Below, piece by piece: positions 20,609 through 44,602 of a stretch of 64,000 bases of DNA. A program made the position numbers and the translations under genes. The stretch is from Flavobacterium terrisoli. Its GTDB lineage: Bacteria; Bacteroidota; Bacteroidia; Flavobacteriales; Flavobacteriaceae. The stretch's first letter is position 1. Every line of letters starts with the position of its first letter. The notes under the pieces are model-generated. The model saw nothing but the letters and a program-made list of their open reading frames with translations. It was not told the origin of the DNA and made no database searches. The stretch is from positions 1-64,000 of the forward strand of contig NZ_JARGNA010000003.1 in assembly GCF_030167905.1 (NCBI RefSeq). Direction: 5' to 3'.

Positions 20609-21820
20609 TTATTTTAAAATAATATCTTGTAATTTAGAGTCATAACGATAATTTACAATCGACTCAACTATAATTAAATCAATTACTTTGTTAATAATGG
20701 GAAGCGGGACAACAAACCATTCCCGAGGTGTGATTCGTCTACCATTATCATCATGGATATCTACATTTAAACATACCTCAGCAAAAAAACGATGTAACAA
20801 TTGCTCAAATTTATGTGGATTAATGTTATAGCATTTAATTGCTGAAACAATATGTACATCTGCCATGAGATAGGTTGGCTCTTTTTTGGCATTCTTTACT
20901 CTCTCTTTGACATCTACTTTAGAGAAACCAATTTTATAGAGGTCTTTTATTGCCGCAATTTCTTTATGTGTAGACTTCGATTTAAGAATATATATCCATC
21001 CTGTTTCCGTATCGTCTTCGTTTACAATATTTGCGTTCTTGAATAATTCATTTTCTACATTGCTATCAGTTTCAGTAACAATTTTACCATTGTTCAATAG
21101 TTGTTTACCCAACGAACGGTAAAGCATATTACTTTCGGTTCCATTTTCAAAAATAATCCTTGTTCTACCATCTTTTCTAATTCTATTTCCGGATGGAATA
21201 ACTCTTTCTTTTTCTTCAATTTCAACTTTTTCAAGAAGTAACAAAATGCCGTCTAAAATATAATATTTACCTTCTTCTAAATTAGTCTCAGTACTATCAA
21301 AGGATCTTAGTTTTCTTTTTCCTTCTCTAATTTCCTGATGAACTTTTTTGAATAATGGTTCATAATTTATAAAGTCTTTTTCTTTGATTGGCTTTCTTCT
21401 CGCTACAAAGTCAGCCTCCTCTCTGTCTTTTGAACTAGGAACATTTTTGAGTTTGAATATTTCAAGAGTATCAGTCGTATCAAGTAATCCAAAATCATCA
21501 TCGTTCATTATATCTTCGATAGAATTAATTTCAACAACATTACTACCAAGTAGATTATGAATATCGTATGGTTTTAAAATTTCACTATTTTTTTTATTCG
21601 TTCTAAGTTCTTTAAGTCGCACACCTAAAGTCCTTTCAGAAACAACATATACATCCGGCTTTGGTTCTCTTTTATTTTTTTCAAAAAAGGCATTGATTTC
21701 CTGAAATGAATCGATTAAACGATCATCCTCAGACTTGATGTTTGATACTTTAGGTTTTGAATCTAAAATACCAAATTCATCATCGTTAAAAATGTCCTCT
21801 AATGTTTTCTTCTTATTCAT
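20609..21820 (-). CDS. T5orf172-domain (GIY-YIG superfamily) nuclease
   Basis: 403 aa. The C-terminal domain (about 272-385) matches T5orf172/Mug113-type GIY-YIG: GWIYILKS (274-281), YKIGFSK (295-301), conserved Arg in VKERVKNA (R307), HKFEQLLHRFF (336-346, His/Glu), and REWFVVPL (366-373). The N-terminal 150 residues carry a duplicated short motif, DDEFGILD (13-20) and DDDFGLLD (107-114), possibly a docking peptide. The start overlaps the helicase stop by 8 bp. Likely the nuclease of the methyltransferase/helicase cassette. Confidence 0.8.
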   Translation of the reverse strand: MNKKKTLEDIFNDDEFGILDSKPKVSNIKSEDDRLIDSFQEINAFFEKNKREPKPDVYVVSERTLGVRLKELRTNKKNSEILKPYDIHNLLGSNVVEINSIEDIMNDDDFGLLDTTDTLEIFKLKNVPSSKDREEADFVARRKPIKEKDFINYEPLFKKVHQEIREGKRKLRSFDSTETNLEEGKYYILDGILLLLEKVEIEEKERVIPSGNRIRKDGRTRIIFENGTESNMLYRSLGKQLLNNGKIVTETDSNVENELFKNANIVNEDDTETGWIYILKSKSTHKEIAAIKDLYKIGFSKVDVKERVKNAKKEPTYLMADVHIVSAIKCYNINPHKFEQLLHRFFAEVCLNVDIHDDNGRRITPREWFVVPLPIINKVIDLIIVESIVNYRYDSKLQDIILK

Positions 21821-23741
21821 TTGCCATTGCTTTACGCTTTTGCTCTCGTAAAAATATAATTGCTTCTGCTAACCTTTTTTCTTGTGGGTCAAATGACTGT
21901 AAACTTGGTTCGACACCCGTTCTAATTTTCCAGTTCTTAATTTTAGGCCATAAAAGAATTGCTTCTTCTTCCGTCATTTGAATGCGGGTGGCATCTATAG
22001 TTTCTTGAATTGCTTTGAACACTGATGCAGTAACTGATTTAGATAATATTTCAAAAGCCTTTTGGAAAGGATTAATTGTATCTATCAAATCAATATTTAT
22101 ATCATCAATATTTACAAAACTGTCAGCCATTCTGATAAATCGCTTATCACCCTGCGTTTCAATATGACCATTCTTTATTACGGAATCCACAACTACATGC
22201 TGACGAACTTCTTCAACTTCCTCTTCTGTTAAGTCAGGATAGGTTTCTCTAATGATTTTAGGAATAAGTACTTTGTTTATTACTTCCGGGTCCACATTAC
22301 CGGGTAAAGCTTTTATCATTACATCATCCTGTAAGATATTAGCTTTTAAGTCATTGATGTCGGATTCAATTATATCCTTAACTCTTGTTGATGATGGTTT
22401 TTTGAATCCATTAATTCGAATGGTATTTTCATCATCTTCACTATCATCCTCTGGAAATTTAGGTTTGAATTTGAAGTTTGGCGCTAATACTTGTTCCATT
22501 AACAATGAAGCTGTAATAGCTTTTAGCATATTGTTTACTGATAATTTAACTTCACCATCTTCGGCATCAGGTTGGGCAATTAAGTTTGTAAATTGCGCAT
22601 GTGTTTTATTTTCACTATCCCTAGTACAACGTCCAATGATTTGAATAATTTCGGTTAGTGAGCCACGATAACCAACCGTTAATGCATGTTCACAATATGG
22701 CCAATCAAATCCTTCTTTAGCCATACCTAATGCAATTATAATATCAATATCGTCTGGATTATTTGAAACTCTTAAATACTCTTGAATTCTATCTCTATCC
22801 TTTTGATTGTCATGAACTAAATCGGCAACTTTTAAAAGATTACCAGTTTTTTTACTTCGAACGAATAGTACACCGGTATCAGGGTCTTGATATTCTAATT
22901 CTCCTAAACTGTCAATAATTTTGTTGACTTCTTCGTATTTTTCTTTGGTAGATTCTCCTGAATTTACACTTGGAATATGGACAATAGTTTTCTTGGTTTC
23001 ATCTAAAATTTCGTCAATTGCTGAGGTATATCTTCCTTGATAAAAATGATAACCAATACCTAATGATTTTAAGTGTTCGTAACCATTTAACTGCTCGTAA
23101 TAATTGTAAGTTACTTTAATAAATTGTTGTTCTGATTCAGGTAATAATACCGGTACACTATCACCTCTGAAATAGGAACCTGTCATAGCTACTATGTGTG
23201 CAGTAGATTTTGCCATAATTGACCTTAGCACTTCACCCAATCTATTGTTTCCATCTGCAGAAACATGATGGAATTCATCGATAGCAATAACCACTTCATT
23301 AAATGCTTTTTCATCAATTCCTTCACATGCAAAGCGTAAAGTGGCATGTGTACATATTAAGAGCTTTTCATCATTAGCCAAGAAATTATTAAATGCTTTT
23401 ACCTTACTTGAATCTCCTCCTGGTGTACATAAATTGTAAATTGGATTAGGTTCCCAATCAGCAAAAAAACCATACTTGGTAAGTGCTGTTTTCCCAAAAG
23501 AACTTCCGATAGAACGTTCCGGGACTGCAACAATAACTTTTTTTAATCCTTGATTGATTAATTTATCTAAACCAATAAACATTAAAGCACGAGATTTACC
23601 GGATGCCGGAGGTGCTTTAATTAGTAAATACTGAGCCGAACGAGCCTCAAAAGCACGTTCCTGCATTTCTCTCATGCCTAACTCGTTAGTACTTTTACTT
23701 TTGCCGGTTTGACCGTACTCTACGTGGACTATATCTGGCAT
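21813..23741 (-). CDS. SF2 DEAD/DEAH-type helicase
   Basis: 642 aa. Walker A is KAPPASGKSRA (42-52), motif II IDEFHH (154-159), motif III AMTGSY (185-190), and motif VI QIIGRCTR (367-374), so both RecA-like lobes are complete. The region after 430 is helical and charged and ends in a Lys-rich tail. The layout fits restriction- and defence-type translocases that use ATP to move on duplex DNA. It is 89 bp after the AlbA ATPase and overlaps the nuclease by 8 bp. It could supply translocation for a cleavage complex with the T5orf172 protein. Confidence 0.88.
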   Translation of the reverse strand: MPDIVHVEYGQTGKSKSTNELGMREMQERAFEARSAQYLLIKAPPASGKSRALMFIGLDKLINQGLKKVIVAVPERSIGSSFGKTALTKYGFFADWEPNPIYNLCTPGGDSSKVKAFNNFLANDEKLLICTHATLRFACEGIDEKAFNEVVIAIDEFHHVSADGNNRLGEVLRSIMAKSTAHIVAMTGSYFRGDSVPVLLPESEQQFIKVTYNYYEQLNGYEHLKSLGIGYHFYQGRYTSAIDEILDETKKTIVHIPSVNSGESTKEKYEEVNKIIDSLGELEYQDPDTGVLFVRSKKTGNLLKVADLVHDNQKDRDRIQEYLRVSNNPDDIDIIIALGMAKEGFDWPYCEHALTVGYRGSLTEIIQIIGRCTRDSENKTHAQFTNLIAQPDAEDGEVKLSVNNMLKAITASLLMEQVLAPNFKFKPKFPEDDSEDDENTIRINGFKKPSSTRVKDIIESDINDLKANILQDDVMIKALPGNVDPEVINKVLIPKIIRETYPDLTEEEVEEVRQHVVVDSVIKNGHIETQGDKRFIRMADSFVNIDDINIDLIDTINPFQKAFEILSKSVTASVFKAIQETIDATRIQMTEEEAILLWPKIKNWKIRTGVEPSLQSFDPQEKRLAEAIIFLREQKRKAMANE

Positions 23742-23830
23742 ACTTTATTTTAATTTATTTTAAACCAAAAAAATAAAAAACACTTATAAACAAAGGGATT
23801 ACATCTTTTATTTCTCGTTTTATTTTTAAT

Positions 23831-25480
23831 TTATTTTTTTTTAGAAATCATATAAGTTCTATTCTTTTTTGCACCCTCAGGAATGATATCATTATTATTG
23901 ACCATTTTGTAAATCAACTTTTTTATATCTTCTTTTGGGACTTCTGGCAATCTTTTCTGAATATCAGATAATTTACATCTGCCATTATGCCTTAAATCTT
24001 CCATGATTAGCAATTCTAATTTATATGGTTCTAATGTTTTTAATGAAGGCTTAATCCCTAATTTAGCTTGAGAAAACAGTTCAGGGTTTAACAAAAATTC
24101 TCTAGCTTTTTTTTCCCCTCTAGTTATTAATATTTCTCTTTCAACTAATGTTCCAATCCATGACGCTGTTTTATCTTCTTGGCTTAATTGCAATTTTAGG
24201 GCTAATTGAGTTGATAAGATTTTCTTTTCAGAGGCTACAATTCCTAAAGTGATATATTCTTTTTGCGTTAGTTGAAAATGATTGTCAATGTAATCTAAAA
24301 TAGAAATCACTTCTTCATCAACAGCTCCCGAGAAAACAGTAACTGATACTTTTGTAAAATCATTATTGATTACCGGGAGCGGTTTAGCATCGCGAACTAG
24401 TTTCTCATAAATCAAATCAAACCCAGAACCTTCGCCTTCCATCAATTTTAAATCACTTAAGGTTTGTATCAAATGAGGGTTGCGTCTGTGTCTTTCATGT
24501 AAAATATTATCTTTTGTTATGCCTAGAGGTAAACTACCAGGATTAGTAATTACCATTCTGTCTACAAAAACTTCAATAAAAATATCTCCTGAAATTGTAT
24601 ATTTTTTATGTGCTACAGCATTAATTAATAATTCCCTTATCACTTCTCTAGGATATTGCCTAACTGTTTTTCTGAACAAACCATCGGGTAACTCTGTGCT
24701 GTATGTTAGCTCAACAGCTTCTTTTTCTATATCTTGAACTAACTCTTTTGGACTTTGTAAATGAAAATGCCATTCCTTTTTTCGAATTTTTTCTTCTCGC
24801 TCATTATAAACTATATATTGAACGGTTATAGGATAGCTTAATCTAGCCCTTTGTGCAGGTGTTCCGAGCCAAAGAACACCCAAATTAGTTAAATAGTTTT
24901 CTGGACTTATCATTTGATAAAATGACAATATTTCTATATCATCACGCTGTTTTATAAATTCAGATACTTTGTCTGACTTCTTTATGTCCTCAATAAATTG
25001 AATTACTTGTTTTGTGTCTGCTTGCTCTAAAGTAATCTTTTGTGGAGCAATTATTTCCCATTGAAAAGCAGTTTTTTCAGCTGCTAGATTAGTTAACTCT
25101 GTACTGTCAACAGGAAAGCAATTATCTGAAATTCTTATCAATACTTTACCAGATGAAGTAGTTGCAATAACTCTTGTAGATGGCAGCACTCTTACTATAA
25201 AATACTCACCTCCATTTTCATGAGTAATAATTTCAGGATTAACTAAACCCACACCATCAGTTAAGCTTCGGAGTCTTTTTACGACTTCATTCATGTCCGT
25301 AACAGAAACTTTTTGGGTAGTAGGAGGTAATTTATCTTTATCTTCAATTCCAATTATTAATTGTCCTCCCTGAGCATTTGCAAAGCAAACGCAAGTTTCA
25401 GCTAATGACGCTAAATCAGATTTTGAACCAATAGCTTTTTTTAAACTTTTGTAATCTTTATTTTTATCTTCGACATTCAT
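23831..25480 (-). CDS. AlbA_2/Schlafen-type ATP-binding protein
   Basis: 549 aa. The N-terminal AlbA_2 (divergent AAA_4) domain at about 10-130 has ETCVCFANAQGGQLIIGIED. A HATPase_c_4 (GHKL-like) module at about 275-365 has REVIRELLINAVAHKKYTIS, ITNPGSLPLGI and EGEGSGFDLIYEKL. The C-terminal 170 residues contain winged-helix-like segments (LTQKEYITLGIVASEKKILS; LSDIQKRLPEVPKEDIKKLI). It begins 2 bp after the methyltransferase. In the family these are regulators or components of defence loci. Confidence 0.85.
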   Translation of the reverse strand: MNVEDKNKDYKSLKKAIGSKSDLASLAETCVCFANAQGGQLIIGIEDKDKLPPTTQKVSVTDMNEVVKRLRSLTDGVGLVNPEIITHENGGEYFIVRVLPSTRVIATTSSGKVLIRISDNCFPVDSTELTNLAAEKTAFQWEIIAPQKITLEQADTKQVIQFIEDIKKSDKVSEFIKQRDDIEILSFYQMISPENYLTNLGVLWLGTPAQRARLSYPITVQYIVYNEREEKIRKKEWHFHLQSPKELVQDIEKEAVELTYSTELPDGLFRKTVRQYPREVIRELLINAVAHKKYTISGDIFIEVFVDRMVITNPGSLPLGITKDNILHERHRRNPHLIQTLSDLKLMEGEGSGFDLIYEKLVRDAKPLPVINNDFTKVSVTVFSGAVDEEVISILDYIDNHFQLTQKEYITLGIVASEKKILSTQLALKLQLSQEDKTASWIGTLVEREILITRGEKKAREFLLNPELFSQAKLGIKPSLKTLEPYKLELLIMEDLRHNGRCKLSDIQKRLPEVPKEDIKKLIYKMVNNNDIIPEGAKKNRTYMISKKK

Positions 25481-25482
25481 TT

Positions 25483-28203
25483 TTAGCTATTTTTATTTTT
25501 TGCTTTCTTTTCCTTTTGAAACAAATTATTTTTTACGGTCATTTCTTCGTACATCTTAAATAAATACTCTAATCTCTCTGTATCGCTTTCAAAAGGCTTT
25601 AAACGGTAACATCTTTCAATAGCTAAATCTAACTGGTGATGTGCTTCTTTCAATCCTTTTGGCATTTTATCAGGATCATATAATTGTGCTAAAGTTTTTT
25701 CAGGATATTTTGCTCTTTCATCTAATACTTCAAACACATGTAAAGTAATTTGCTCTTTTTGTTTATCAGTTATTTTTGGGAAAGGAAATGTATTGTAACA
25801 CAAACCAGCAGAATATCTATAATCAGTTTTTAATTTACCACCTACGGCACTAACCCAAACCATATGTATTGCAGAGGAAATTACGCCAAATATCCATGGA
25901 TGAACATTATAAATTGCAAGAGCTGAATCAGATATAATATAATTTTCATCAAGAAAGTCAACTGGTATATATTTTCTGTTTTCAGATGATACCCTCGGTA
26001 CTATTATTGAATTTGTTTCTTGATGTCTTATTTCAGCAAATTTATGAGGAATTGATGCTAATTCACGCGTTGACTCTCTCTTACTTTTATTCCTAATATT
26101 AAAAGTTTCATTGATGCGTTTTTTTATATCGGGAATAGAATAAGCTAGTTCTTTGTTATCATCTGTTATCCAAAGGCAATATCTTTCTTTTCCTCTTATT
26201 AATTCTAATGATCCAATAAGGTTTTTAATCAAAGGTAAAGCTTCAGGATTTTTTAATATAATTTTCTCTCTATCCTCTTTTGATAAAATCAAATAACCAC
26301 CATCATTTGCCATGCTACCAAAATTTATCTCAGGTAAATTTGAAATACTTTTACTTTTTTTGGAGATAATTAATGGATTTCCTTCAACAAGATATGGGCT
26401 AATATTATCAACTTTCTTTTCAAAATTATCTATATAAATATACTTCTGTTTATTTGATACATTTCTAAGACAAACTATAATAACATATACACCTGCATTA
26501 CCTTTTGCATTATTAGTCCATTTAAATGATTGAACAGCGAATCCAATTTCAATAGTTTCGGATATAATGTTTGGCCATATTAAGGCAACTTGTTCACCTT
26601 GACAAATTGAGTTGGTAGAAACGAATGCACATTTAGCATTATTACCATCTATAAACTTCTTTCCTAGATAAAACCAACAGGCAATGTAGTCCATGTTGTT
26701 GTAGCCATTTATATTGTTAAAAACAATACTCATGTCTTTCTTTTGCTCTTCATCTTGAAGTCTTGCCCCGAGGTAAGGTGGATTTCCCAAAATGTAAATC
26801 TCATCATTACTATCCTTCACTGGGCAAACCAAATTCCAGTCTACTCTTGTAGCATTACCTTGTTTGATATGTCCAGCTTCCTTAAGTGGTAGAATCGGTC
26901 TAGCTCTACCAAAATCAAATAATTCATCAATAAATACCTTATTCATTTGATGCTCAGCTAACCAAAGCGACAAAATTGCCATTTCATGGGCAAAATCATC
27001 TAACTCAATACCATAGAATTGAGAAAGTTTTATTTCGGTGTAAACTGTTTCTGTTTGATACGGAAGTTTACTTTCTTGTTTCAGTAAATCAATCTGTTTC
27101 CAAATTTCAATCTCAAGTTTACGTAACTCTTTGTATGCAATAATTAAAAAATTACCGCTACCACATGCCGGGTCAAATATCTTTATTTTAGATAGTCTAA
27201 AAATTAGTTTTCTTAGTTTATTGGAATTGTCTTTGCTTTTTTCGAACTCTTCATATAAATCATTTAGAAACAATGGCTCGATAACTTTCATAATATTTGG
27301 CACTGAGGTGTAGTGCATTCCTAATCCGCTGCGGTATTCTTCGTTTACAACAGCTTGTATCATGGAACCAAAAATATCCGGATTGATTTCACTCCAGTTT
27401 AAATTACCACATTCCAATATAATCTTACGTGCTTTAGAGGAAAATTTTGGAGAATGAATAGTATCACGGAATAAGCCACCGTTAACATAAGGGAAAGCTT
27501 TTAAATAATCAGGTTCCGAACTATTATCTTTAGTATTTAATATTTTGAAAAGTCTGTCTAAGAAAGTATGTACATCACTGCCATCTAATTTTGTATGCTG
27601 TGCCAATGTATTAGTGAAGATTCCTTCTTCTTCAAAAATTCCAGTATCCTCGGCAAAAAAGCAAAATAAAATTCTGGATAAAAAGATATTTAGATTGTGA
27701 CCTCCATCATCGTAGATATTTGGATTTTCATGAACCAATATATCATATAATTTGGCCATTTCATATGAAGCATCTCTGTCAGCTTGATTGTCATTTTTTT
27801 GTAGATACTTTTCTTGTCCCGCCCATGGCAAAAAGAAATCGAACCTTTTATTGATTTCTGTTATCTGCGTGTCAAGGGTAAAACCTGTCCTAGTATCTTT
27901 TGCTAATAAAGTTTTATAATCGGTCACTATTACAAAACGAGGGTTGTGTTTTAAATCCTCTTCGCTTTTAGATAAATAATCAATAGTAGTAAGTAATTTA
28001 TCTGAGGCAACTTCTTTGAAAAGCACCTTCTTTTTGTATAATACCTCGCCTTCTTTTTTAGAAAAATTAAAATCACCTTTTTTTAATCGTGTAATAGAAG
28101 TTTTTGATATTCCATATGCCATTAAAAGATCATAGATAAAATTCTCTTTATCAATTGATTTTACAAGTTCATTGAGGTTTTTTTCTATTTCAGAAGTCTT
28201 CAT
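25483..28203 (-). CDS. Class I SAM-dependent DNA methyltransferase (type IIG/MmeI-like architecture)
   Basis: 906 aa adenine-type DNA methyltransferase. The N-terminal region (1-165) has the MmeI/YeeA-like pattern PRFVIVTDYKTLLAKDTRTG and NKRFDFFLPWAGQEKY. A helical linker with LNIFLSRILFCFFAEDTGIF follows, then motif I FDPACGSGNF (343-352) and motif IV NPPYLGA (474-480). A target-recognition-like region extends to about 830. I see no clear D...ExK in the N-terminal domain, so it may lack its own nuclease and rely on the T5orf172 protein. First gene of the leftward cassette; modification of host N6-adenine is the expected self-marking step. Confidence 0.88.
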   Translation of the reverse strand: MKTSEIEKNLNELVKSIDKENFIYDLLMAYGISKTSITRLKKGDFNFSKKEGEVLYKKKVLFKEVASDKLLTTIDYLSKSEEDLKHNPRFVIVTDYKTLLAKDTRTGFTLDTQITEINKRFDFFLPWAGQEKYLQKNDNQADRDASYEMAKLYDILVHENPNIYDDGGHNLNIFLSRILFCFFAEDTGIFEEEGIFTNTLAQHTKLDGSDVHTFLDRLFKILNTKDNSSEPDYLKAFPYVNGGLFRDTIHSPKFSSKARKIILECGNLNWSEINPDIFGSMIQAVVNEEYRSGLGMHYTSVPNIMKVIEPLFLNDLYEEFEKSKDNSNKLRKLIFRLSKIKIFDPACGSGNFLIIAYKELRKLEIEIWKQIDLLKQESKLPYQTETVYTEIKLSQFYGIELDDFAHEMAILSLWLAEHQMNKVFIDELFDFGRARPILPLKEAGHIKQGNATRVDWNLVCPVKDSNDEIYILGNPPYLGARLQDEEQKKDMSIVFNNINGYNNMDYIACWFYLGKKFIDGNNAKCAFVSTNSICQGEQVALIWPNIISETIEIGFAVQSFKWTNNAKGNAGVYVIIVCLRNVSNKQKYIYIDNFEKKVDNISPYLVEGNPLIISKKSKSISNLPEINFGSMANDGGYLILSKEDREKIILKNPEALPLIKNLIGSLELIRGKERYCLWITDDNKELAYSIPDIKKRINETFNIRNKSKRESTRELASIPHKFAEIRHQETNSIIVPRVSSENRKYIPVDFLDENYIISDSALAIYNVHPWIFGVISSAIHMVWVSAVGGKLKTDYRYSAGLCYNTFPFPKITDKQKEQITLHVFEVLDERAKYPEKTLAQLYDPDKMPKGLKEAHHQLDLAIERCYRLKPFESDTERLEYLFKMYEEMTVKNNLFQKEKKAKNKNS

Positions 28204-29436: not shown

Positions 29437-29463
29437 TTGGATTTATTTTAATGATTATATTTG
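29437..29463 (+). promoter_or_regulatory. Promoter reading into the predicted RNA
   Basis: TTG (29437-29439) and TATATTTG (29456-29463) are separated by 16 bp, a good fit to the Bacteroidota promoter on the plus strand. Expected transcript start is about 29470. Confidence 0.5.
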
Positions 29464-29469
29464 TACTTC

Positions 29470-29804
29470 CCTTGAAATTAAAATTCAGGTTGTTTGGGTT
29501 CTTATGAATCACTGCATTTGCATGAAGTGCTTGTTGTTCTTCTGTCAGAAATCGTTTTTAGTAACCTTATTAAATCAGAGAGTATGAAAGAGTTCACTTT
29601 AAAAGTCACTATACACTTATTTTTGTCGTTTATTTTAACACAATTAGAATGTTTAGCCTTTCTCGTTGTCGGACAGACCATCACCATCGACAGATTCTTG
29701 TGCAACTTGGTATAAATGCTGTAGTAAAACAAATGGCCACTCTGGGATGGCGGGGTTCGAATCCCTGGTCTGTCACAAAAACCGCATTAATGCGGTTTTT
29801 TTTT
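29470..29804 (+). ncRNA. Predicted non-coding RNA with tRNA-like 3' end
   Basis: About 335 nt between a plus-strand promoter and an intrinsic terminator. The overlapping short ORFs on both strands look unlike real proteins. Near the 3' end a 9-bp perfect pairing GACAGACCA (29672-29680) with TGGTCTGTC (29766-29774) encloses a tRNA-like T-arm: CGGGG, TTCGAAT, CCCTG (29751-29767), the last bases shared with the long stem. A small stem GCCA/TGGC precedes it. The distance between the acceptor-like arms (103 nt) is too long for a tRNA, and no tag reading frame like that of tmRNA is seen. Its identity is open: a tRNA-like regulatory RNA, a diverged tmRNA-type end, or a decayed integration site. Confidence 0.45.
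29780..29804 (+). terminator. Strong terminator after the predicted RNA
   Basis: The palindrome CCGCATTAATGCGG (29782-29795), extended by AA/TT pairs, is followed by nine T. It lies directly after the tRNA-like end and at the 3' end of the convergent gene at 29803. Confidence 0.85.
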
Positions 29805-30447
29805 ATTTATTGCGAGAGCTTTCATTATTAATTTCATCTAAGTATAACTGCAAATCATACAAGTAAATCAATTCATCATCTTCTTGTTCTGGCAGTTGCG
29901 CTAACTCTACAAAGTTGATGTTCTGATGTAATAGTTTTTCACCAATTATATCTTGCATGATGATGTAAATCACTTGAAGTAAATTTTGATTGTGGGATAG
30001 GACGGTAAAGTTTTTTAGGTATACAATCATGTCGATTTTAATTTCATTTTCATATTGGAATGGCATGAATTTGAGTTCGCTAGCTTTGAGTGTGATGTCC
30101 TTGAAAACATAAGGTTTGTCTAGTCCGGCTTCCATTTCCTCGATGTTTTCCGAAGGTTGGATAAAAGCAATGAATTTCCACTTTTTTAATGTTGGAGCTG
30201 CTTCAACTAAAGTGGTTACTTTATTAAAATATTCCGGGTCGCCATTGGCAGAAATAACGAGCTGCACAGGTTCGTTTTCATTAACCGGAAACATCAGAAT
30301 GCTTTCTAGATTTTCGCAGTAGTTATGTAAATGTCTGTCGAGCCAAAAAAGAAACATCTTTTGGACTTTAGGTTTTTCGTTTCTTAGGTTCCTTAATGTT
30401 TGTTCGTTGTATTGGATCCATTCCCAAAATAAAGTTATTCTTCTCAT
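29803..30447 (-). CDS. Hypothetical protein, last gene of the replication-type operon
   Basis: About 214 aa from ATG 30447 (the frame is open to 30486). That start gives a 10-bp gap to the ATPase gene and begins MRRITLFWEWIQYNEQTLRN. Soluble alpha/beta protein: PVQLVISANGDPEYFNKVTT and LKKWKFIAFIQPSE in the middle, acidic C-terminus. It resembles a group of Bacteroidota hypothetical proteins that begin with FWxWFxxNE (recollection). No function is assigned. Confidence 0.65.
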   Translation of the reverse strand: MRRITLFWEWIQYNEQTLRNLRNEKPKVQKMFLFWLDRHLHNYCENLESILMFPVNENEPVQLVISANGDPEYFNKVTTLVEAAPTLKKWKFIAFIQPSENIEEMEAGLDKPYVFKDITLKASELKFMPFQYENEIKIDMIVYLKNFTVLSHNQNLLQVIYIIMQDIIGEKLLHQNINFVELAQLPEQEDDELIYLYDLQLYLDEINNESSRNK

Positions 30448-30457
30448 GATGTAATTA

Positions 30458-31120
30458 TTAGCGTTTATCAATAGTGTTTTTGTCATAGGTGATTAAGTTG
30501 ACCATTTGACGGAGTCGGCTTCTTACGCGTAAACCGTAATGGGTTTCGATTTCAGAAGCCGAAAGATTTGTTGTTAAGTGTGTTGGGATTCTCTTGCTGA
30601 TGAAAATATCATAACGACTCAGTAATATTTCTGCCATCACGTTACATTCATTGCCAAAATACTTGAGGTTGTTTTCGGTACCTAAATCGTCAAAGCATAT
30701 TATTTTAGGGTCTGCATGATATAATTTGCCATTGCTGTATTTATGAATGGTTTGATATCCATCCTGGATAAATTCGAAACTAATATCGCGACATGGTTTT
30801 ACATAGTATTTGTGTTCTGTTTTTGAAATGAACTTCATTAAATTCATTATTGCTGTTTTACCACAACCAATAGGACCGGAAAGCAAAATACCTTTATTGA
30901 TATCAACCCCAAAGTTTGAGCATGCTTGTTCGTCTCGGAGGTAATAGGCAATTAGCTTATAAATCACCGGATAGTCTATTTCATGAATTTTGAAATTGGA
31001 CCAATATATTTCGCGACCTTTTATTTCTAACCAATTGATTACTTCTTCATAACTATAAAGGCTCTGAATAGTCTTTTCCTGCGGTGGTGTCGAATTGTTT
31101 TGTACTGTCGGCTCTTCCAT
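30458..31120 (-). CDS. DnaC/IstB-like AAA+ ATPase
   Basis: 220 aa. Walker A is LSGPIGCGKTAIMNLMK, Walker B KIICFDDLGTE, and the sensor/arginine-finger region is THLTTNLSASEIETHYGLRV then RSRLRQM, as in DnaC helicase loaders. It overlaps the upstream HTH gene by 68 bp in another frame. In mobile elements such pairs recruit the replicative helicase to the element's origin, so this is probably part of an element replication module. Confidence 0.8.
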   Translation of the reverse strand: MEEPTVQNNSTPPQEKTIQSLYSYEEVINWLEIKGREIYWSNFKIHEIDYPVIYKLIAYYLRDEQACSNFGVDINKGILLSGPIGCGKTAIMNLMKFISKTEHKYYVKPCRDISFEFIQDGYQTIHKYSNGKLYHADPKIICFDDLGTENNLKYFGNECNVMAEILLSRYDIFISKRIPTHLTTNLSASEIETHYGLRVRSRLRQMVNLITYDKNTIDKR

Positions 31121-35190: not shown

Positions 35191-36432
35191 TTAGCTATTT
35201 GCTTGAAGCAGGGTTGAAGGTTGAGAAAATTTGAGCCTTAATACTTGCATATCCTCACTTACTTTCTTGTCTAGAACTCTAGCGTAATGCTGTGTTGTTT
35301 GGATGTTTTTGTGGCCTAGCATTTTGCTTACGCTTTCAATTGGAACTCCATTAGATAAAGTTACGGATGTTGCGAATGTGTGTCTGGCCATGTGGAAAGT
35401 TATTTCTTTTGTAATTTCACACAAGTCGCCAATTTCTTTTAAGTATCCGTTCATTTTTTGATTACTAAGAACCGGTAATACACTTTCTTCATTCAAACAT
35501 TTGGGATTGTTTGCATACTTCTTAATTATCTCCTCGGCAATCGGTAGTAAAGGTATCTTAGATTTTGTATCAGTCTTTTGACGATTTTTGAAAATCCATT
35601 TTTGGCCATCGATGCCAATGCCAATATGATCATGTTTCAATCCTTTTACATCTACATAAGCTAATCCGGTAAAACAGCAGAAGATGAATATGTCTCGAAC
35701 TAATTCTAATCTCTGCGTTCTGAATACTTTGTTATAGATACTTTGAATTTCTTCCTCAGTTAAGAATTCTGTTTCTACTTCTTTCATTTTACCATCATAT
35801 TTTACGAAAGGGTCTTTTTCGAGCCAGTCATTACTTAGACAGATCTTAATAATCTTCCGGAAATTACGAACATATTTTACTGCAGTATTGTTGCTGCAGT
35901 TTTTTACACTTCTCAGGTAAAATTCAAAATCAGTAATCAAAGCAAAGTCGACTCTGTCAATAGCAATATCCTTAACTCCAAGTTTCCAAACTAGAAACTC
36001 TTCTAGATGTTTCAATGAAATTTTAAAACGCTCTAAAGTGCCGAAAGCATATCCATTGCCTAAAAGACTTTCAATTCTATTGTTATGGTCTTTATAAATA
36101 GGAATCAACATTCTTTGACTGTCGTTTTCTCCAAATAAGCGTTTTCTGAAACTCGCTATATTGATAGGTTCTTTTTTATGAGCAAGAGATAATTGTATGT
36201 CAATAATATCAGATTTTACAGAATCCAGATAGTTATTAATTGAACGGGCTTCCTCTGAGTTGCCTTTCATTTTGGATAGATCATCGGACCATTTTGATTT
36301 TTCGATAAACTTTTTAGAGCTATATTCTAAACGTTCACCATTTATGGTAAGTCGAATATACAATGGTAATAGTCCGGTGGAAATGGCTTTTTTACTTCTC
36401 AAGTAAAAATGCAAAGTGATTTTTTCTTTCAT
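35191..36432 (-). CDS. int: Tyrosine site-specific integrase (CTnDOT type)
   Basis: 413 aa from ATG 36432, which begins MKEKITLHFYLRSKK as in Bacteroidota integrases (the frame is open to 36495). Order: arm-binding domain (1-85), SAM-like core-binding domain (about 115-215), catalytic domain. His-x-x-Arg is FHMARHTFA (H347, R350), the second His MLGHKNIQTT (H374), nucleophile HYARV (Y383). The first catalytic Arg position reads FTGLAYVDVK, with Ala258 where most tyrosine recombinases have Arg, a feature shared with IntDOT-like enzymes. It is 276 bp from tRNA-Val and probably integrates there. Confidence 0.93.
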   Translation of the reverse strand: MKEKITLHFYLRSKKAISTGLLPLYIRLTINGERLEYSSKKFIEKSKWSDDLSKMKGNSEEARSINNYLDSVKSDIIDIQLSLAHKKEPINIASFRKRLFGENDSQRMLIPIYKDHNNRIESLLGNGYAFGTLERFKISLKHLEEFLVWKLGVKDIAIDRVDFALITDFEFYLRSVKNCSNNTAVKYVRNFRKIIKICLSNDWLEKDPFVKYDGKMKEVETEFLTEEEIQSIYNKVFRTQRLELVRDIFIFCCFTGLAYVDVKGLKHDHIGIGIDGQKWIFKNRQKTDTKSKIPLLPIAEEIIKKYANNPKCLNEESVLPVLSNQKMNGYLKEIGDLCEITKEITFHMARHTFATSVTLSNGVPIESVSKMLGHKNIQTTQHYARVLDKKVSEDMQVLRLKFSQPSTLLQANS

Positions 36433-36558
36433 GGTGGTGACCTTTAAATTATTATTCAATTTATAATTCTCAACAAAGTCAAACAAGATGTACAAAATTT
36501 AATCAAGCTATTGAATAGGTTGTTAGTACGGTCTGTTTGCGCGGTCTTATGAAATTTT

Positions 36559-36704: not shown

Positions 36705-36782
36705 TGGTGGGCGATGAGGGATTCGAACCCCCGACCCTCTCGGTGTAAACGAGATGCTCTGAACCAACTGAGCTAATCGCCC
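36705..36782 (-). tRNA. tRNA-Val (anticodon TAC)
   Basis: Full cloverleaf on the minus strand. Acceptor is GGGCGAT/ATCGCCC, D-arm AGCTCAGTTGGTTCAGAGC, anticodon loop TTTACAC between TCTCG and CGAGA (TAC reads GTA and other Val codons), T-arm GGGGGTTCGAATCCC, and an encoded ACCA end. The 3' end faces the integrase, the usual orientation for tRNA-targeting elements. Confidence 0.97.
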
Positions 36783-43054: not shown

Positions 43055-44602
43055 ATGCAAAAGCTTTCAGTTTTTATTATGGTTTTTCTACTCAGTTCAA
43101 CCCTTTTGTTTTCACAAAAAGGGGAAGAAACTAATGAATTGATTCAGAAGGCAAAAAAGGAATTATTTGTAAATCCGGAACAGAGCTTAAAAATTACAGA
43201 ATACATTCTTCGCAATTATAATTCCAATGCGGTTTTGGTTCAATCCAATTCGATATTGGCTAACTATTACTTCATTACAGGAAAGTACCCGCAAGCTGTC
43301 GATAATATTATGCTCGCCATAAAACGGTTACCACAAATTGAAGACAAAACCATTCAGGTTGAAACATTACTCCAGGCTGTTGAGATTTTTAATTTTTTAA
43401 ATTTATATGAAGCTTCCCGTGAATATCTCAACATGGCTAAAAGAGCCGCTATAGGCAATATGGGATTGGAAAATAAACTTAAAAATCACGAACTTCTATA
43501 TTCGAAAAAAACTCCGGACTTTGACAACTTCAGAAGGATATTAAAAGAAATCGCTCCAAATAAACTAAGCGAATATGCGTCCTTAACAAAAGGAACCGTA
43601 GCCACCCAAATGACCCAGAAATTTCTTGATGAGGAAGTGTTGGACTCAGCTTCTTTTTATGCTGCTAAAAATATCTCCGATCTTGAACATAATGATTCTG
43701 GTGTTTATTGGCGAATGATTGCCGAAATACAATATGCTGAAATCTATTTTAAAAACAAGGATTATCAGAATGCCACTAAAATATTGGATATTGCACTCGA
43801 AAAAGAAAATCTATTTAAAAGCGCTTATTTTCAAGGAATAATTTACGAAAGGCTGGCCAGGAATCATCTGGTGCTTAAAAACAAGGAAAAGTACCGTGAG
43901 TTCAGCCAAATGTCTTCAGCTGCCGCTAATGTATTAAACATTGAAAAAACCTTAGCGGTCAATAGTGCTTTTGACAAATTTCAAAATCAGAAAACTTCAA
44001 CTGTAACAGCATTACAGGAAAAAGAAAATCGTTTGCTGTGGATTTTGGGAATCGTGGCTTTGGCAATAGCCGGGATAGGGTTGTTTGTCAGATGGTACTA
44101 CAATACGCGAATTGAATATGCTTCTAACATTGTCAATTATATTAAGCTGATTAAAAAAGCAGAGCTTAAACCGGAAACGCCGGCCAAACTTATTTTAAAA
44201 AGTAATCAGAGACCTAAAGAAACTGACGAATTGCTGCTGAGTAAATTGGCCGAATTTGAAAACGGGAATACCTATTTAAGCAACGATATTTCGTTGGCAC
44301 AATTGGCGTTCCAATTGGATACCAATACCAAATACCTTTCGGAAGTCATCAACCAATATAAAGAGAAGAATTTCAATGTTTATATCAACGAATTGCGTAT
44401 TCATTACATTGTAAACAAACTCAAAACAGATCCAATTTATCTTTCCTATAAAGTGAGTTATCTGGCGGAAGAATGTGGTTTTTCAACACACAGTAGCTTT
44501 TCGGCAGTATTCAAAAACATTACCGGAATCACCCCAAATGTCTTTATTCAGTTTTTGACAAAGGACAAAATTGAAGAGGAAAATCTCATGAGCCTAAATT
44601 AA
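43055..44602 (+). CDS. TPR membrane regulator with AraC HTH
   Basis: 515 aa from ATG 43055, chosen because it begins a good signal/anchor (MQKLSVFIMVFLLSSTLLFS); the frame opens 10 codons earlier. TPR-like helices fill about 20-320, a TM helix lies at about 328-350 (LLWILGIVALAIAGIGLFV), and a C-terminal AraC HTH follows (ISLAQLAFQLDTNTKYLSEV; YKVSYLAEECGFSTHSSFSA). Same architecture as 32289-33980. It is followed 5 bp later by a TPR-only relative. Confidence 0.87.
   Translation: MQKLSVFIMVFLLSSTLLFSQKGEETNELIQKAKKELFVNPEQSLKITEYILRNYNSNAVLVQSNSILANYYFITGKYPQAVDNIMLAIKRLPQIEDKTIQVETLLQAVEIFNFLNLYEASREYLNMAKRAAIGNMGLENKLKNHELLYSKKTPDFDNFRRILKEIAPNKLSEYASLTKGTVATQMTQKFLDEEVLDSASFYAAKNISDLEHNDSGVYWRMIAEIQYAEIYFKNKDYQNATKILDIALEKENLFKSAYFQGIIYERLARNHLVLKNKEKYREFSQMSSAAANVLNIEKTLAVNSAFDKFQNQKTSTVTALQEKENRLLWILGIVALAIAGIGLFVRWYYNTRIEYASNIVNYIKLIKKAELKPETPAKLILKSNQRPKETDELLLSKLAEFENGNTYLSNDISLAQLAFQLDTNTKYLSEVINQYKEKNFNVYINELRIHYIVNKLKTDPIYLSYKVSYLAEECGFSTHSSFSAVFKNITGITPNVFIQFLTKDKIEEENLMSLN

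Follow-up and report, generated by a model that had tools for sequence, protein, structure and literature searches.

A predicted RNA gene of Flavobacteriaceae in which a small open reading frame runs into a tRNA-like 3′ domain

Does the RNA locus at 29437-29804 on the plus strand of the stretch analysed here give a non-coding RNA that imitates a tRNA, or a message whose 3′ end can fold like one? This stretch, hereafter the window, comprises 64,000 nucleotides from Flavobacterium terrisoli. The initial annotation listed a promoter-like TTG-N16-TATATTTG, a perfect 9-bp pairing that closes a 103-nt segment, a T-arm and a terminator. All of these signals of the predicted RNA unit are present on direct reading of the sequence (Table 1). 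We take TTG-N16-TATATTTG to be a putative Bacteroidota −33/−7 promoter; a sigma-70 scan of the region addresses another consensus. By eye, a TANNNTT box is seen at the aligned place in the homologous loci L068, L074 and L105 (described below). The long pairing joins GACAGACCA (29672-29680) to TGGTCTGTC (29766-29774) in nine of nine positions, and the T-arm is built from CGGGG, the loop and CCCTG, with one G-U pair. A scan of the segment 29300-29900 gave two terminator-like sites, of which one is 29777-29800 and the other lies on the minus strand; the figure for shuffled sequences was 0.2.

Table 1 Features of the RNA locus in the window
Feature	Position	Strand	Basis
Putative Bacteroidota-type promoter TTG-N16-TATATTTG (TTG, 29437-29439; 16-nt spacer; TATATTTG, 29456-29463)	29437..29463	+	Sequence match to motif
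Leader hairpin GGTTC-TTAT-GAATC	29497..29510	+	Predicted fold
PL5′, leader strand of long-range helix	29511..29537	+	Native pairing best of 5040 permutations
TTCTGTC	29540..29546	+	Kept in type A (four loci); can pair with GACAGA of c1/c2
Small ORF, 43 aa, one hydrophobic segment	29584..29715	+	Counterpart in 7/7 intact loci
c1, first candidate acceptor 5′ strand, within ORF	29672..29678	+	A3 pairing in 48/49 cells, seven loci
P2 5′ strand CCATC, weakly supported	29684..29688	+	Complementary to 29746-29750
c2, second candidate acceptor 5′ strand, within ORF	29689..29695	+	A3 pairing in 49/49 cells
PL3′, linker strand of long-range helix	29702..29725	+	Permutation and shuffle tests
TAAAACAA	29725..29732	+	TAAAAYAA in window, L068 and L074
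P2 3′ strand GATGG, weakly supported	29746..29750	+	Complementary to 29684-29688
T-arm, 5-bp stem, loop TTCGAAT	29751..29767	+	Loop TTCGANT in 7/7 loci
A3, acceptor 3′ strand GTCTGTC	29768..29774	+	Pairing and covariation, seven loci
Discriminator-like A, then C, no encoded CCA	29775..29776	+	Purine-C and no encoded CCA after A3 in 7/7 loci
Intrinsic terminator	29777..29804	+	Terminator scan; stem 29777-29800, then T tail

In the Rfam and ARAGORN checks proposed in the initial annotation, no Rfam family reached its gathering score in the stretch, and ARAGORN returned no gene. Below threshold, the top bit score belonged to SpF41 (26.4 bits against a cut-off of 52, E 0.047) and the lowest E-value to isrK (0.0041; 23.7 bits against 50). 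Identity with tRNA (RF00005) was rejected, with no cloverleaf above the Rfam cut-off and no ARAGORN tRNA; the 46 matches to the tRNA model that were listed for its genome, up to E 10, did not include the locus.

Homologues were found in other genomes. In a blastn search of 150 relatives with the window stretch, five genomes matched, namely the own genome and four with matches shorter than 40 nt. The exact 23-base T-arm/acceptor pattern occurred in one genome of the GTDB collection, Flavobacterium sp. WG47 (L068). With the L068 locus as query, blastn at E 0.001 matched 27 of 397 genomes of the family. These were the own genome, a genome of another genus (G412, L074, 4.6e-20), and 25 genomes whose matches were short, with E-values no better than 4e-5. 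Three sequences were used to build a covariance model for the 3′ domain, and it matched 4 of 398 genus genomes, which were the own genome, G796 (the WG47 sequence again), G028 (L104) and G191 (L105). The five-sequence model matched 5 of 249 genus genomes and gave new loci in G258 (L168) and G232 (L169). A second copy in G028 (L158), which came from the model searches, is decayed: by eye, it has TTG in place of ATG, its middle part is in another frame, the hydrophobic segment is replaced and c1 is changed, while six of seven c2:A3 pairs and the T-arm still fit. Because the G028 assembly is listed with 7% contamination, its copies may stem from two strains. The model R2 matched 18 of 349 family genomes (two members, in the own genome and G412; 14 tRNA genes by ARAGORN; two others), 6 of 158 order genomes (the own genome and five tRNA genes) and 6 of 40 genomes in another set (G028 with two copies, and five with tRNA genes). 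Two weak R2 matches, L111 and L113, were neither tRNA nor family members. There was no homologue among viral contigs, plasmids or phage records. Among 36 pattern loci, L143 and L151 formally match the signature described below; they lie in tRNA arrays and were not counted as members, and the other pattern loci showed tRNA-like spacings or nothing.

Thus, seven intact, diverged loci (window, L068, L074, L104, L105, L168 and L169) and one decayed locus are at hand, so far only in the bacterial family of the window. Their absence elsewhere is not firm, because the genome sets overlap and the large sets were scored with stricter filters and few candidates each. In each intact locus the same parts follow in the same order: a leader, an ORF of 38-55 codons, a tRNA-like 3′ domain and a terminator. 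The proposal of a discrete, gene-like RNA unit is supported. By eye, the leader hairpin can be drawn at a similar place in L074 and L105, and a hairpin stands at the terminator position in the other six loci, with a weak T tract in L104. By their peptides, the window, L068, L074 and L105 are called type A, and L104, L168 and L169 type B.

Across the loci, the tRNA-like domain has a 7-bp acceptor stem, a 4-5-bp T-stem and a TTCGANT loop. The acceptor 5′ strand lies within the end of the ORF and occurs in two copies, c1 and c2, 17 nt apart, both of which match the one A3. The gap between c1 and c2 is 10 nt in 7/7 loci, and the segment that begins with c2 and closes with A3 measures 86-90 nt. In the seven-sequence alignment, all 77 cells of c2:A3 plus the inner T-stem are paired, and 5 of the 11 pairs (12 cells) are changed on both sides; because the sequences are related and most double changes divide type B from type A, these represent few independent covariation events, L105 being the supplier of double changes of its own. 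In c2:A3 by itself, three of seven pairs are changed on both sides. When c1:A3 is combined with the T-stem, 76/77 cells (98.7%) are paired, with four pairs changed on both sides. The inner four pairs of the T-stem are formed in 28/28 cells, and two of these four pairs are changed on both sides. The covariation score or the paired percentage was reached by none of 500 shuffles in either the c2:A3 or the c1:A3 test; the number of doubly changed pairs was reached by 15 and 5 of 500, and the number of pair types by 500 and 469 of 500, respectively. When the partners were slid by 1-3 columns, 37.7-54.5% of the cells were paired (51.9% at most for c2:A3). Thus, the tRNA-like 3′ domain claimed at the outset is borne out by the homologue search with covariance analysis that had been proposed for it, since both acceptor stem and T-stem covary.

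The fifth T-stem pair is absent in L105, L168 and L169. The stack in the c2 register, which resembles an RNase P substrate of about 12 bp plus T-loop, has 7+5 bp in the window, L068, L074 and L104, and 7+4 bp in these three loci. A signature was formulated after the homologues had been seen: a T-arm and an acceptor strand for which two matching copies, 17 nt apart, lie upstream. It occurs once in the window and 3 times per 100 dinucleotide shuffles of one strand. The stem P2 shows one compensatory change in three sequences; 72% of its cells are paired over five loci and 552 of 5040 permutations were as good, so that P2 is retained as a weak element only. We also considered whether the 86-nt c2 segment could be a class II tRNA, with TTGT/ATAA as the D-arm in the window, and discarded this view, since the linker is paired to the leader and the D-arm sequence is not conserved.

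The initial annotation found no credible protein in this region and called the RNA non-coding. This part has to be revised: the 43-codon ORF at 29584-29715, translated MKEFTLKVTIHLFLSFILTQLECLAFLVVGQTITIDRFLCNLV, has a counterpart in 7/7 intact loci and runs into the tRNA-like domain. The distances from ATG to c1 are 88, 88, 88, 91, 85, 85 and 85 nt, with a single phase in all seven loci; insertions and deletions between ATG and c1 are multiples of 3 nt only, and the frame is kept. A hydrophobic 19-aa segment (mean 1.73-2.50) is present in each of the seven. The type A peptides are clear relatives, with identities to the window peptide of 87% in L068 and 58% in L074. The type B peptide is a different hydrophobic peptide, which has QT[IF]PSSRLVQ[NT]EISC near its end and shares little with type A beyond the codons fixed by c1-c2. 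Differences at the first, second and third codon positions were 4/1/5, 9/9/16, 12/7/17, 11/9/15, 12/8/18 and 11/9/12 in the six type A pairs, and 8/6/6, 5/5/6 and 7/7/4 in the type B pairs; between the types, first positions lead in most pairs. The changed codons are mostly non-synonymous throughout (for example, 14/18 between the window and L074). When the same base changes were placed at random, the observed similarity was reached by 14, 1, 0, 6, 0 and 0 of 2000 placements for type A, and by 160, 558 and 500 of 2000 for type B. Constraint on the peptide is therefore evident for type A. For type B, in which the similarity does not exceed that of random placement, the open frame and the hydrophobic segment suggest that the ORF may be coding. 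No Pfam or NCBIfam family matched the three type A peptides searched, and the window peptide had no match in PHROGs.

The ORF also appears to be enclosed by a long-range helix. We compared the 32 nt before TTCTGTC (29508-29539 in the window) with the 36 nt after c2 (29696-29731). These leader and linker strands differ strongly among the loci, yet they fit each other: in the seven intact loci, with decayed L158 excluded, the mean pairing energy was −18.5 kcal/mol for native and −12.2 kcal/mol for swapped partners, and none of the 5040 permutations surpassed the native set. When the two strands were shuffled for comparison, z was −2.2 to −4.3 per locus, and 0-34 of 1000 shuffles did as well. The helix predicted for the window has 20 pairs, its strands being 29511-29537 and 29702-29725. 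The TTCTGTC that follows the leader strand is not whole in type B, and the start codon sits in an A/T-rich stretch. Since the order is leader, c1/c2, linker and A3, the helix crosses the acceptor stem, and both together would form a pseudoknot. Folding energy does not stand out, with z at −1.11 in the 106-nt domain and −0.48 in the transcript, so the case is built on comparison. For 29465-29805, the tRNA-like domain is missing from the minimum-energy fold and present in the centroid; a 343-nt version contains the domain in the c1 register, and the transcripts of L068 and L074 have, at minimum energy, the long-range helix and no acceptor stem. Sequence comparison supports the ORF, the T-arm, both acceptor pairings and the long-range helix as parts of this RNA.

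Our preferred reading, to which we assign a probability of about 0.4, is a small structured mRNA with two states, which combines an ORF for a membrane peptide, a fold-back like that of hok and AapA mRNAs, and a tRNA-like tail for processing or stability. In the folded state, the leader would pair with the linker behind the ORF over about 20 bp, so that a ring encloses the ORF, and a tRNA-like stack of acceptor stem and T-arm would form at the 3′ end. During translation, by contrast, a ribosome that has reached the last codons would have to unfold c1 or c2 together with the beginning of the long-range helix. Both c1 and c2 consist of codons, so a ribosome at this place and the folded acceptor stem are mutually exclusive. 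The product would be a short membrane peptide, most likely harming or signalling to its own cell, as type I toxins do, and by analogy with hok and AapA the fold-back may keep the full-length mRNA silent. The tail would most likely recruit tRNA-processing enzymes, with RNase P cleavage 5′ of c2 or c1, 3′ trimming and CCA addition. Such cleavage would cost the message its stop codon, and the two copies of the acceptor strand would allow the tail to form in either of two registers. We infer in this way that the peptide is produced and has an effect, that the RNA is processed and that it switches. If the peptide is toxic, this would be a small-peptide toxin mRNA under the control of tRNA enzymes. 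Because the acceptor strand consists of codons, competition between the ribosome and a tRNA-processing enzyme is testable by a few point mutations.

A more far-reaching form of this dual-state mRNA, which we consider rather unlikely, is a class of bacterial mRNA in which a tRNA mimic made from the message's own last codons serves as a translation sensor and ties the peptide to the state of tRNA processing and translation. Ribosomes reaching the stop codon would keep the mimic open and untranslated RNA would fold it; RNase P would then take the folded RNA in one of two registers and leave a stop-less RNA. This link could act during phage attack. If this is true, SpF41 of phages would be an unrelated second case.

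Among known RNAs, tmRNA (ssrA, RF00023) joins an ORF and a tRNA-like domain in one RNA, and its ORF lies in a ring closed by a long-range helix. Our RNA shares both traits, with an acceptor/T-arm domain as its tRNA-like part. In contrast to tmRNA, the 5′ strand of the acceptor stem does not stand at the 5′ end of the RNA but internally, and in 7/7 loci it falls within the 3′ part of the ORF; the ORF starts at ATG and has 38-55 codons; and G3-U70 is missing, the third acceptor pair being C-G in 7/7 loci with c1 as well as c2. Identity with tmRNA was rejected, given the different topology, no match to RF00023 or by ARAGORN, and a separate tmRNA in the genome at C11:234-631. A tmRNA search of the genome returned this gene, and the RNA locus was not among the matches. 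The term tmRNA-like in the initial annotation is therefore kept as an analogy only, since topology and the tested identity features differ. To our knowledge, no described bacterial RNA besides tmRNA joins an ORF to a tRNA-like domain. The RNA family is not described in the literature searched, which included the accessible parts of PMC6064168, PMC6733600 and PMC5521070 and covered few subscription papers.

The nearest parallel to an ORF that ends in a tRNA-like acceptor strand is SpF41 sRNA (RF02435). Like our RNA, SpF41 has an anticodon-less T-arm and acceptor stem with a terminator directly after it, and in 5/5 phages read the acceptor 5′ strand consists of the final codons of the preceding CDS, with the stop codon directly after it (frames checked in L182, L184 and L185, and taken from annotation in L189 and L192). 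It differs in that the overlapping CDS encodes a longer hypothetical protein, and in 4/4 satellites read there is no overlapping annotated CDS; the overlap may be chance in a compact genome. Membership in SpF41 was rejected by the score in the window, which is about half of the gathering score. The SpF41 model found nothing at E 0.1 in six homologue loci, and R2 gave 13.9 bits on the SpF41 locus L182. By score, SpF41 is an analogue and not a relative. SpF41 is filed as a Streptococcus sRNA, and we observed it as an anticodon-less tRNA-like RNA in Streptococcus phages and satellites. Its 58-nt 3′ part matched 15 of 50,697 phage records at E 0.1; there was none in plasmids, and the pattern was found in none of the viral contigs. 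Five of its loci scored 94.7-116.9 bits and had no ARAGORN gene. Its acceptor stem varies yet stays complementary (L181-L185, about 1157-1265; L189-L192), and in the five phage records read SpF41 lies in a gap before the terminase genes.

The RNAs of plant viruses (TYMV, BMV) also carry tRNA-like structures at their 3′ ends, that is, a tRNA mimic at the end of a message; our RNA differs in being bacterial and in having the acceptor strand within coding sequence. The pseudo-tRNA tRNAOther of Bacillus cereus resembles it as a tRNA-like RNA by a genomic island and outside translation; in the portion of the source that was available, tRNAOther is described as a predicted pseudo-tRNA and no peptide-coding part is mentioned (PMC3399842). 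In the type I toxin mRNAs hok and AapA1/AapA3, a short hydrophobic peptide, a long-distance 5′-3′ interaction and a compact transcript recur. Full-length AapA3 mRNA is silent through the 5′-3′ interaction and is activated by 3′ truncation, according to the accessible part of PMC6733600. The long-distance 5′-3′ interaction, which marks the hok/AapA subgroup of type I toxin-antitoxin systems by the definition given there, is found here as well. A small hydrophobic peptide ORF, another type I feature, is also found, with strong coding support in type A. Unlike in those mRNAs, the tRNA-like 3′ end overlaps the ORF, and no antisense RNA was identified with a loose promoter pattern.

The strongest competitor of the dual-state mRNA is an RNA that is itself the product, a tRNA-mimic sRNA that would serve as a decoy, diverting RNase P, enzymes that modify tRNA or the tRNA nucleases of phages; the small ORF would then be regulatory or incidental, for example a leader that times RNA folding. 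This is consistent with the little that type A and type B peptides share outside the c1-c2 codons, with the lack of excess similarity in type B and with SpF41, whose anticodon-less tRNA-like RNAs occur in satellites without an overlapping annotated CDS. However, ATG, phase and hydrophobic segment are kept in all seven loci despite the 3-nt indels, and type A similarity exceeds random placement. We regard this reading as doubtful.

A classical type I toxin-antitoxin pair, in which the mRNA of a toxic peptide is controlled by an antisense RNA and the tail merely stabilises the 3′ end, would agree with the size and hydrophobicity of the peptide, the long 5′-3′ pairing, the patchy presence and the restriction system nearby in the window. 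We consider it unlikely. A scan with a loose promoter pattern on the opposite strand, which fits in 2/7 loci, gave no antisense gene, and both acceptor copies stay complementary to A3, beyond what a stabiliser needs. Even less probable is a leader-peptide attenuator, in which translation of the ORF would select c1:A3 or c2:A3 and so control read-through into a downstream gene. Two mutually exclusive registers do overlap the ORF end directly before a terminator, and the next ORFs are co-directional in L168 and L169. However, the next gene is convergent in 5/7 loci (window, L068, L074, L104 and L105), and no common downstream gene was seen. A decayed tRNA or att remnant, which the initial annotation had named among the outcomes that would overturn its reading, is hardly credible, and so is chance pairing, because, against a tRNA-like T-arm and an integrase and tRNA-Val 5.4-7 kb away, there stand compensatory changes in seven diverged loci, including the native helix pairing, the absence of the locus from the ARAGORN and listed tRNA-model results, and a tRNA-Val 3′ end that is single in the genome.

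The assignment to a mobile element stood in part. In the window, the RNA gene sits between a GGACT-family gene and a convergent replication module, which consists of a 227-aa protein (29803-30486, convergent with the RNA locus, no Pfam family), a DnaC-like loader and an HTH_17 protein. An integrase-like gene (35191-36495, from ORF reading) adjoins tRNA-Val (36705-36782); a far att site was not found, as the 26-nt tRNA-Val 3′ end occurs only once. In favour of the assignment are this integrase/tRNA-Val locus beside the window copy and a homologue of the 227-aa gene on the L168 contig. In contrast, by ORF reading without family calls, L105 lies at the end of a type I restriction operon and L104 next to ssb, and by ORF reading L068/L180 lies between an S24-type regulator and copper genes, near DinB/DnaE-like mutasome genes. 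L168 stands between a GHKL-like ATPase and XRE/ImmA-like genes (ORF reading). On looking over the neighbours of the loci, no recurrent partner gene was seen. Moreover, R2 found no copy within about 1.5 kb on either side of 27 (of 29) other homologues of the 227-aa gene, so that the RNA gene behaves as cargo.

Homologues of the 227-aa protein itself were matched in 80 of 249 genus genomes, with at least 10 in one genome, some with internal stop codons. Upstream in the window, 20609-28203 holds a minus-strand cluster of four genes, encoding a type IIG (MmeI-like) restriction enzyme-methyltransferase, a Schlafen AlbA_2 protein, a DEAD helicase and a T5orf172 protein, which are perhaps one composite defence system. 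On contig C14 of genome G000 (43127-44037, L069), a tRNA cluster with intact genes also includes partial matches to tRNA that stay below threshold (24.4, 18.6 and 14.3 bits) and are perhaps decayed tRNAs.
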